A stretch of DNA of 64,000 nt, from NCBI GenBank assembly GCA_027488135.1, contig JAIYCH010000022.1:1-64000 (forward strand). Direction: 5' to 3'. The notes beneath the pieces were generated by a model. It was not told the DNA's origin. It made no database searches and saw only the letters and a list, made by a program, of their open reading frames with translations. The position numbers and the translations under genes were made by a program. Shown one piece after another: positions 43,427 to 46,892 of the stretch. Every line of letters starts with the position of its first letter. Within the stretch, counting starts at the first letter, position 1. The DNA comes from Saprospiraceae bacterium (GTDB lineage: Bacteria; Bacteroidota; Bacteroidia; Chitinophagales; Saprospiraceae).

Positions 43427-43895
43427 ATCGATATAAAATTATTGCATCTTGTAAAGGTAAGGGATTTTTAATTGTAAGCCCCTCTGCTTTAACACGCCTG
43501 TAGTTTTCTGCATTACCTTATTAAAGTTTGACAGCAAATCATTCAACCTTTTTATTTGGGTATTTCAAAAATTCAGTAAAATATTGACATTGGGGGGTTA
43601 TACTCATCGCTGATATTTTTGAAGGCTTTTATTTAACATAGTCGAAACTAATTAACACCCCTCCATATCGATCATAATATTTACTAACTGAAGCATTAGA
43701 GTAATTAAACATAAGATAATCAGATAAATAAGTGTATAAAAAGAAAACTGGAAAATAGCTCTGAAACTTTAGAACCGCCTAAAGATTCGTTGCACTATAC
43801 ACCTAACTAAAAATATATTAAAACAAAATGTTTTAATATTGATATTATTAAACATTTTGTTTTATATTTACCTGCTTTTAATAGTTATCCTTACT
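43427..43895. other. Intergenic region of 469 bp upstream of dnaE2
   Basis: No gene. It holds the 24-nt motif shared with 38336-38359 (43748-43771) and two tandem palindromes (43816-43838 and 43848-43864) just before the dnaE2 start. Otherwise AT-rich. Confidence 0.65.
43816..43864. promoter_or_regulatory. Two tandem palindromes before dnaE2 (LexA-like operator candidate)
   Basis: Site 1: TATTAAAACA-AAA-TGTTTTAATA (43816-43838), perfect 10-bp arms with a 3-nt spacer. Site 2: TTAAACA-TTT-TGTTTTA (43848-43864), with one mismatch. Both share AAACA-N3-TGTTT, centres 29 bp apart, ending 31 nt before the ATG at 43896. Spaced, A/T-rich, dyad-symmetric pairs right before an error-prone polymerase look like a damage-response operator. 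Confidence 0.6.
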
Positions 43896-46892
43896 ATGTA
43901 TCTAAACTGCCACACTTATTTTAGCCTTCGCTACGGGATCATGTCACCGGAGGAACTGGTGCGTTATGCCATAGAAAATGACATTAAAACGTTGGTATTA
44001 ACTGACATCAACAATACAAGTTGCGCTGGAGAGTTTATAGATGGCTGTCAAAAAGTGGGAATAAAGGGCTTATTGGGTATTGACTTTCGGAATGATGCGG
44101 GAGAATGTTTATACATTGGAATAGCAAGAAATCGGGAGGGGTTTAGTGAATTAAATACATTTTTAACTGACTTTTCGATGAAACGCAAGGCATTACCCCT
44201 TTTGCCTCCTATTTTTTCAAATTGCTGGATTATTTTCCCCCGCTTGGTAAAGCCCATTGAACAATTTCGGGAAAACGAATTTTTGGGCATTCGCCGGGAA
44301 CATATTGCCCGATTATTCAGGCATCCGATCAGAGCATACACTCATAAATTAGTAGCGTTAAGCACTGTTACATTCAGAGATGATGAAGATTATCAGGTTC
44401 ATTTACATTTACGGGCTATAGATAAAAATAAATTACTGACTCATTTACTTCCCAAAGAGTCTGGTTCAAAGGACGATAAAATGCAGGCGGCAGCCTTGGT
44501 GGAAGAACCCTACTTAGTGTACCCCGACATAATAAATAATACCTATAAATTATTAGACGCATCATCTATTAATTTGACGAAAGGATTAACAGTTAACCGA
44601 TTACACTTTACAGGTAGTATGGAAGGTGACTATGCCCTGCTTGAGAAACTGGCTCAATCGGGTTGCCAGCGCAGATATGGTGAATTGACTGCTGCACGCG
44701 ATCGGATGAGACAAGAAATGAAGGTCATTCAAACCCATAGATTCTGTGCCTATTTTCTTATCACCTGGGACATTGTCCGCTATGCCCGGTCTGCCGGCTA
44801 TCATCATGTAGGGCGAGGCAGCGGTGCCAATTCCATTGTTGCCTACTGCCTGGGAATCAGCGACGTTGACCCCCTTGAATTAAATCTGTATTTCGAACGA
44901 TTTATCAATCCGCATAGAACATCTCCCCCCGATTTTGACATTGATTTTTCATGGGATGAACGAGACGACATTACCGATTATATTTTCAAAAGATATGGAC
45001 AACAATATGTTGCCTTATTAGCCACGTACAATACTTTTCAACGAAAAGCAGCCATTCGGGAGTTGGGAAAAGTGTATGGTCTGCCCAAGGGAGAGATAGA
45101 CAAATTAGTTATAAAACAAGAACAAGGAGCGCCGCACCGGCATGAATTGGAACCGACCATTTTGTATTACGCAGAGCGTTTGCTCGACAAGCCAAATCAT
45201 CTGTCCATACATGCCGGGGGCGTACTTATCAGTGAAGAACCCTTGTCATATCACACGGCATGTATGCTCATGCCCAAAGGTTTTCCTGTTACCCATTTTG
45301 ATATGCACCATGCGGAATCCCTCGGGTTTCATAAATTTGATGTCCTGAGTCAGCGCGGATTGGGTCATATCAAGGATGCCGTCTCTCTGATACGTCAAAG
45401 GCATAAACAAGATGTTGATATACATGATATTAAGTTGCTTAAAAATGACCCGCAAAGTATTGCCTTATTACGGTCAGCAAAATGTCTGGGTTGCTTTTAT
45501 ATAGAATCTCCGGCCATGCGTGGCTTACTACGAAAATTACATTGTGATAATTATATTCATTTAGTTGCTGCCAGTTCTATTATCCGTCCTGGTGTTTCCA
45601 GCTCGGGCATGATGAAAGCGTATATCCAAAGGACGCACGACCCTTGCGGTTTTACTTATCCCCATGCAGTTTTTGAAGAACAGCTAAGTGAAACGTATGG
45701 CATCATGGTATATCAGGAAGACGTAATGAAAATTCTGCATCATTTTGCCGGACTTGATTTAGGGGAAAGCGATGTGGTGAGGCGCATTATGACAGGAAAA
45801 AAATTAAAAGACGACACGTTGGAACGTTTGAAGGAAAAATATTTTAAACAATGTAATCAAAGAGGCTATTCGGAAATATTAGCGATTGAAGTTTGGCGAC
45901 AGATTGAGAGCTTTGCTGGATATTCCTTTTGCAAAGCCCATTCGGCCAGTTTTGCTGTAGAAAGTTTTCAAAGTTTATATCTAAAAGCCCACTTCCCATT
46001 GGAGTTTATAACAGCGGTCATCAATAATTTTGGTGGATTTTATCCTACGGAATTTTATGTCCACGAAGCAAAAATACTGGGTGCTCATGTTCAGGCTCCT
46101 TGTGTCAACCATAGCCTGTATATGAGTGCTTTGGTAAATGAAAATGATTTATATCTTGGATTTATCCACTTAAAAGAAATAGAATCACAAACAGCTCAAA
46201 AAATTATAACGCAAAGAGAAAATCACGGAGTCTTCCGCGATTTCGCAGATTTCGTTGAACGGGTACCCTTAGGACCTGCCCAACTTGACATATTAATCAG
46301 AATTGGTGCCTTTCGTTTTTGCGGAAAGAGCAAGTATGAATTATTTTGGGAGAAAAATGCCCTGGTAACTGCCGTAGGGGAACAAGATAACCAATCTCTG
46401 TTTTCTGAAACAGATCATCAATCAATGCGCGTTCAAAACACAGAAGATGAAAGTTTTTCATTTGCCTCCATGCTTTCCGTTATAAAGGAAAACGCCCTAA
46501 ATCAGTCTTTTGACGAATTAGAATTATTAGGCTTTCCGTTATGTAACCCCTTTGATTTAATTCAGGACACCAGCCCTTTGAACGATACTATTCTTGCCAG
46601 GCAAATGGTTAGTTTTAAAAACAGACCTATCAAAATGGCGGGATATTTCGTGTGCTCAAAATCCTTAACAACCATAAAAAAAGAAAGGATGGCCTTTGGA
46701 ACATGGATAGACCATGAGGGGAACTATTTTGACACTACTCATTTTCCAGAACAATTGTTGAGACACCCCTTTCGTGGAAAAGGTGTATATATGATAGAGG
46801 GAAAAGCGACGGAAGAATTTGGTTTTTTCAGCCTGGAGGTCTCTAAAATGAATCGGCTTCCCTTTTTGGCCGATGAAAGATTTGCCGATTAA
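43896..46892 (+). CDS. dnaE2: DNA polymerase III alpha subunit, DnaE2/error-prone type
   Basis: 998 aa with start at 43896 (MYLNCHTYFSLRYG); the upstream hydrophobic stretch in the longer frame is not part of the family. The PHP domain opens with L-N-C-H-T, where the first metal His of the usual HxH is Asn, so proofreading by this domain is probably lost. The palm has GRGSG near 305, PDFDIDF with D346 and D348, and KFD (D482) as the third Asp. An OB fold is near the C-terminus (KERMAFGTW), and the tau-binding tail of replicative DnaE is absent. The expected role is translesion synthesis after damage. No ImuB, DinB or LexA gene is next to it. Confidence 0.87.
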   Translation: MYLNCHTYFSLRYGIMSPEELVRYAIENDIKTLVLTDINNTSCAGEFIDGCQKVGIKGLLGIDFRNDAGECLYIGIARNREGFSELNTFLTDFSMKRKALPLLPPIFSNCWIIFPRLVKPIEQFRENEFLGIRREHIARLFRHPIRAYTHKLVALSTVTFRDDEDYQVHLHLRAIDKNKLLTHLLPKESGSKDDKMQAAALVEEPYLVYPDIINNTYKLLDASSINLTKGLTVNRLHFTGSMEGDYALLEKLAQSGCQRRYGELTAARDRMRQEMKVIQTHRFCAYFLITWDIVRYARSAGYHHVGRGSGANSIVAYCLGISDVDPLELNLYFERFINPHRTSPPDFDIDFSWDERDDITDYIFKRYGQQYVALLATYNTFQRKAAIRELGKVYGLPKGEIDKLVIKQEQGAPHRHELEPTILYYAERLLDKPNHLSIHAGGVLISEEPLSYHTACMLMPKGFPVTHFDMHHAESLGFHKFDVLSQRGLGHIKDAVSLIRQRHKQDVDIHDIKLLKNDPQSIALLRSAKCLGCFYIESPAMRGLLRKLHCDNYIHLVAASSIIRPGVSSSGMMKAYIQRTHDPCGFTYPHAVFEEQLSETYGIMVYQEDVMKILHHFAGLDLGESDVVRRIMTGKKLKDDTLERLKEKYFKQCNQRGYSEILAIEVWRQIESFAGYSFCKAHSASFAVESFQSLYLKAHFPLEFITAVINNFGGFYPTEFYVHEAKILGAHVQAPCVNHSLYMSALVNENDLYLGFIHLKEIESQTAQKIITQRENHGVFRDFADFVERVPLGPAQLDILIRIGAFRFCGKSKYELFWEKNALVTAVGEQDNQSLFSETDHQSMRVQNTEDESFSFASMLSVIKENALNQSFDELELLGFPLCNPFDLIQDTSPLNDTILARQMVSFKNRPIKMAGYFVCSKSLTTIKKERMAFGTWIDHEGNYFDTTHFPEQLLRHPFRGKGVYMIEGKATEEFGFFSLEVSKMNRLPFLADERFAD

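Follow-up and report, generated by a model that had tools for sequence, protein, structure and literature searches.

Here we propose that two tandem palindromes directly upstream of a dnaE2-type error-prone polymerase gene in a Saprospiraceae bacterium are operators of P0002, an SOS-like S24 repressor that would keep the dnaE2 promoter shut until DNA is damaged; from sequence comparison, we give this reading a probability of roughly three in four. The window, meaning the whole stretch of 64,000 nucleotides that was analysed, holds the following features at this locus:

43815..43839, no strand: proposed distal operator dyad ATATTAAAACA-AAA-TGTTTTAATAT, a perfect dyad with 11-bp arms
43819-43835: core of the distal dyad, TAAAACA-N3-TGTTTTA
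43848..43864, no strand: proposed proximal operator dyad TTAAACA-TTT-TGTTTTA, with one mismatched pair
43863..43870, + strand: TATATTTA, a putative promoter element, -7-like, with one mismatch to TAnnTTTG
43896..46892, + strand: P0001, a dnaE2-type error-prone DNA polymerase of 998 aa, the gene under the proposed control

The sequence agrees with the original prediction that the two dyads share the core AAACA-N3-TGTTT (AAAC-N5-GTTT in 4-N5-4 form), that their centres (43827 and 43856) lie 29 bp apart, and that the proximal one ends 31 nt before the dnaE2 ATG at 43896. Two further features had gone unremarked: the 15-nt core of the distal dyad is the reverse complement of that of the proximal dyad, and TATATTTA overlaps the end of the proximal dyad. 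The product, P0001, carries the Pfam domains PHP, DNA_pol3_alpha and finger. Across the genome (4,207,763 bases in 156 contigs), exact TWAAACANNNTGTTTWA occurs at three places, compared to one for the reversed control, namely at both dnaE2 dyads and once before a DinB polymerase on contig C27; furthermore, the full 14/14 site arose in 0/2000 first-order Markov sequences modelled on the same 150-bp upstream region. When two to three mismatches are allowed, the genome search finds the motif at a frequency not above chance or the reversed control, so that only near-exact matches are informative; one-mismatch sites and profile matches elsewhere in the genome are mostly within genes.

The AT-rich composition of this intergenic region and the chance frequency of the relaxed motif could suggest chance palindromes or a dispersed repeat family, but conservation refutes that reading and leaves it next to no probability. 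Both dnaE2 dyads are kept in 7/7 congeneric genomes, each at 13-14 of the 14 consensus positions, with a spacing of 29 bp across the genus (30 in one genome) and an invariant TGTTTTA as the right half of the proximal dyad, whereas the sequence further upstream has diverged and aligns poorly. Exact sites are few in these seven genomes, and 18 of the 20 precede dnaE2 or dinB (the reversed control yields 8 in total); the remaining two are one conserved spot within an unrelated ORF. The alignment upstream of dnaE2 orthologues and the motif scan, both suggested with the original prediction, returned conserved dyads at a conserved spacing and a small set of sites concentrated at two genes.

Conservation could also reflect protein constraint if the dyad region were coding, as an in-frame 5' extension of dnaE2 from the TTG at 43839; the frame is open upstream of the ATG both here and in related genomes. 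However, in other genera the orthologues share the MYLN start residue and have open frames of only about 995-1001 aa, and the dyads recur before dinB without any such peptide, which together largely refute the extension and make it barely credible. It is similarly very improbable that the dyads act as RNA, in the form of 5'-leader hairpins that attenuate or terminate transcription or control dnaE2 translation. Such a role would be compatible with the perfect inverted repeats, which have 3-nt loops, are mutually reverse-complementary and are found 31-80 nt ahead of the start codon, but the arms are almost all A/U, interspecies changes break the pairing uncompensated (TTCAACA or TTAAACT opposite the invariant TGTTTTA), and it is the sequence itself, rather than structure alone, that is found again, in imperfect dyads, upstream of dinB and in S24 promoters.

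The exact site on contig C27 lies upstream of P0003 (dinB), ending 56 bp from its start codon; P0003 is a Y-family polymerase that runs for 339 aa to the contig end, with Pfam IMS domains and DNA polymerase IV as its best NCBIfam model. This gene also has tandem dyads, with centres 18 bp apart. The proximal one ends one base short of TATCTTTG, a full match to TAnnTTTG, and 20 bp upstream of TATCTTTG the distal dinB repeat contains a TTTG; Bacteroidota promoters have a -33 TTTG element at its own spacing. TAnnTTTG is the flavobacterial / Bacteroidota -7 element (PMC9723704). The geometry of dyads and -7 elements at dinB and dnaE2 is most naturally read as repression through occlusion of the promoter. 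A second, canonical-looking DinB (G000:C22:5418-6428), 30% identical to P0003, is without an exact operator.

By comparison of coordinates, several related genera have dinB immediately ahead of dnaE2 (e.g., G007, G021, G049, G011, G010, G016, G020 and G038); the intact cassette of G007 has a tandem pair (TAAAACTATTTGTTTTA, AAAAACAAAAGGTTTTA) before dinB. In the window's genus the cassette is split, each half having its own tandem operator. The polymerase had been called an orphan, and it does stand alone here, but it does so because the cassette has split, and it is really one half of it. The tandem operator on each half shows regulation being kept as an operon breaks up.

Recurrence of the tandem pair before the DinB polymerase bears out the expectation that the site belongs to a regulon, which in the window's genus looks very small: dnaE2, dinB and probably the repressor's own gene. 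Of the wider recurrence upstream of repair genes that had been anticipated, the genome scan found dinB and no other repair-gene match; upstream of recA there is no clear operator, only a degenerate conserved TACAAACAATTTATTTACTTTTG. This recA-upstream sequence ends in a TAnnTTTG box and is nearly identical in all seven genomes (L152-L158).

As had been supposed, the likely regulator lies outside the window. A Pfam S24 search of the genome returned a single S24/LexA-like repressor gene, that of P0002 (251 aa; PF00717, 47.3 bits), on contig C100 and unlinked to dnaE2. The Ala-Gly scissile bond is present in 20 of the 21 aligned orthologues and the Ser/Lys dyad is also kept, with AFAG, GNSM and WVKY conserved in the alignment. 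In an AlphaFold model of moderate quality (pLDDT 70), residues 3-85 form five helices, and the C-terminus, rich in beta structure, has LexA (Z 12.9) and RecA-bound lambda CI (Z 12.1) as its best fold matches; fold matches of the N-terminus in this moderate-quality model are weak (2kpj, Z 6.4). Pfam gives only PF00717, with no match to an HTH domain in the N-terminus (PF01381 is expected for a CI-like HTH) and none to the canonical LexA winged HTH, PF01726; NCBIfam gives nothing, and no solved structure is related to P0002 by sequence. A search of 37 family genomes found orthologues in about 25. Among 148 genomes sampled across the phylum, full-length matches are confined to the family, with S24-domain similarity elsewhere.

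Motif discovery on 19 promoters of P0002 homologues outside the genus, with the window unused, gave TAAAATTATTTGTTTTA with a TTGC box at its right (objective 141.6 vs 49-52 for shuffles); TTGTTT half-sites are exactly 17 bp apart in 8/19 of these promoters, and TTTGTTTTA half-sites, often 17 bp apart, are found in promoters of P0002 orthologues. A 27-column profile built from the orthologue promoters gives the window site the top rank in the 64-kb window, but genome-wide it is not specific, that site sharing a rank of about 8-12. A palindromic EM motif run settled in GC-rich flanks and was set aside. Within its own genus, the P0002 promoter has a single asymmetric site, ATAAATTATTTGTTTTA, matching 10-11 of 14 positions (AAATTATTTGTTTTA, some 36 bp upstream of the start codon), so that any autoregulation through this code would be weaker than in relatives. 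In a second family-level S24 group, made up of paralogues and missing from the window's genus, 7/8 members (L162, L164, L165, L167, L168, L169 and L171) have their own gene preceded by a perfect AAAC-N5-GTTT, at -48 to -52.

We additionally compared the distribution of sites and repressor, scoring the 150 bp before dinB or dnaE2 and counting as a site any match of at least 12/14. Sites were found in 12/18 genomes with a P0002 orthologue, the other 6/18 having no clear site before either gene, and in 0/20 genomes without one (Fisher p = 7e-6). With the window's genus counted once the figures are 6/12 vs 0/20 (p = 0.001), and within the family, again with the genus counted once, 6/12 vs 0/9 (hypergeometric p about 0.02, hand-worked), an association that is partly confounded with phylogeny. 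The genomes compared are draft assemblies, and those with a name are Saprospiraceae/Haliscomenobacteraceae metagenome bins. In relatives without a P0002 orthologue, GAC-N9-GTC palindromes precede dinB/dnaE2 (L105, L109, L112, L022), paired in 2/3 genomes; perhaps these are another undescribed operator.

These observations bear on whether the dyads might instead be operators of another regulator (e.g., of MarR, TetR or stand-alone XRE type) that responds to some stress different from RecA-sensed damage, the likeness to S24 promoters then being coincidence or a matter of AT-rich promoter elements. That P0002 binds the dyads is a prediction; the S24 promoter in the window's genus carries an asymmetric site; and TTTG and TAnnTTTG/TAnnTTGY are common to many Bacteroidota promoters, all of which would suit a different protein. 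Against this stand the exact 17-bp distance in eight P0002-orthologue promoters, the perfect sites of the second paralogue group, the co-occurrence of sites with the S24 orthologue, and the nature of both targets as translesion polymerases, the usual core of S24-repressor regulons (PMC8565304). Taken together, another regulator seems unlikely, at something like one chance in six.

If P0002 is the repressor, as we favour, a dimer on each AAAC-N5-GTTT dyad would shut the dnaE2 promoter, with the dimer on the proximal dyad covering the -7 element. DNA damage would then give rise to RecA filaments, these would lead to cleavage of P0002 at its Ala-Gly bond, and the departure of the repressor would allow dnaE2 and the separately located dinB to be expressed together; the P0002 gene would be governed from its own promoter through the related, less symmetric site. 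We infer the binding, repression, cleavage and damage induction in this scheme. The original prediction of an SOS-type operator at dnaE2 is upheld as regards a conserved operator pair that recurs in tandem before dinB, whereas its induction by damage is still a prediction.

Outside the genus, the 12 related genomes with a P0002 orthologue hold 14 exact sites, compared to 4 for controls. Of the 14, six are upstream of genes for membrane-anchored glucosaminidases (PF01832), and dnaE2 and a topoisomerase subunit A gene account for one each. The glucosaminidase sites are spread over five genomes, with two genes in one of them (L215, L216, L218, L222, L223, L227). In G032 (L221, 1501-1517), an exact operator with a TATATTTG box lies 141 bp before the gyrase/topoisomerase IV subunit A gene. 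The glucosaminidase homologue in the window's genus differs, and no operator site precedes it. It is possible that the membrane-anchored glucosaminidase is a damage-controlled cell-wall hydrolase. A broader proposal, which we hold tentatively and at slightly less than even odds, is that the family has recruited for SOS a third, distinct clade of phage-like S24 repressors with AAAC-N5-GTTT as its code, controlling dinB/dnaE2 and, in relatives, the peptidoglycan glucosaminidase, and so linking DNA damage to cell-wall cutting. Were this true, a third repressor clade with its own operator and the same polymerases under its control would represent another independent phage-type take-over of mutagenesis genes.

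The original prediction held that a LexA-like operator of this form is not well described in Bacteroidota; this has to be corrected, as SOS operators and repressors of the phylum are known. In Sanchez-Osuna 2021, NAR (PMC8565304), Bacteroidetes S24 repressors with a CI-like HTH control SOS genes through the motifs CTAA-N5-TTAG and GGA-N5-TCC, plus a diverged TTAC-N5-GTAA, and topoisomerase IV is also a target in these systems. In the text considered here, the known systems do not include the window's family, and, its Table S10 of diverged palindromes aside, only the present motif and its repressor clade appear undescribed; a literature search found no paper joining LexA, the SOS response and Saprospiraceae. 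Several traits are nevertheless shared with the non-canonical LexA proteins of that account (PMC8565304): an S24 peptidase with an Ala-Gly bond and Ser/Lys dyad, a 4-N5-4 palindrome that is often paired within a promoter, and a core of targets made up of error-prone polymerases. A helical, HTH-type N-terminus (for P0002, from model helices with no Pfam HTH) and sites before the repressor's own gene (tandem half-sites in relatives, one asymmetric site in the window's genus) may be shared as well. Unlike in those systems, the operator here is AAAC-N5-GTTT, not CTAA-N5-TTAG or GGA-N5-TCC, and the regulon in the window's genus is very small; no CTAA or GGA dyads occur in the upstream sequence shown for dnaE2/dinB.

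In a tree, a separate clade (support 100/99) unites P0002 with two paralogue groups, apart from proteins that have CTAA-N5-TTAG or GGA-N5-TCC sites at their own genes; such proteins represent the described clusters here. As a positive control, the phylum sample recovers the CTAA and GGA site types at their own genes. SOS operators change letters during evolution. From the 4-N5-4 form of the site and the separate clade, our best reading is that P0002 probably works like a non-canonical LexA and is a member of neither described cluster.

Closest in layout is the diverged operator of Elizabethkingia anophelis, TTAC-AAATT-GTAA, which is also of 4-N5-4 form and beside an error-prone polymerase, and which has been shown to be bound by its S24 repressor (PMC8565304); its dyad letters differ, and it goes with a CTAA-group paralogue from the Weeksellaceae. 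HdiR (Streptococcaceae) and UmuDAb (Moraxellaceae) are likewise described there as non-LexA S24 repressors with minimal regulons, mainly error-prone polymerases (PMC8565304), and are set apart, on that description, by unrelated lineages and operators. Finally, P0002 resembles phage lambda CI in its S24 C-terminal fold and in several neighbouring operators that would be read by dimers; unlike CI, it would be no prophage repressor but a regulator of host polymerase genes, with a different operator sequence.
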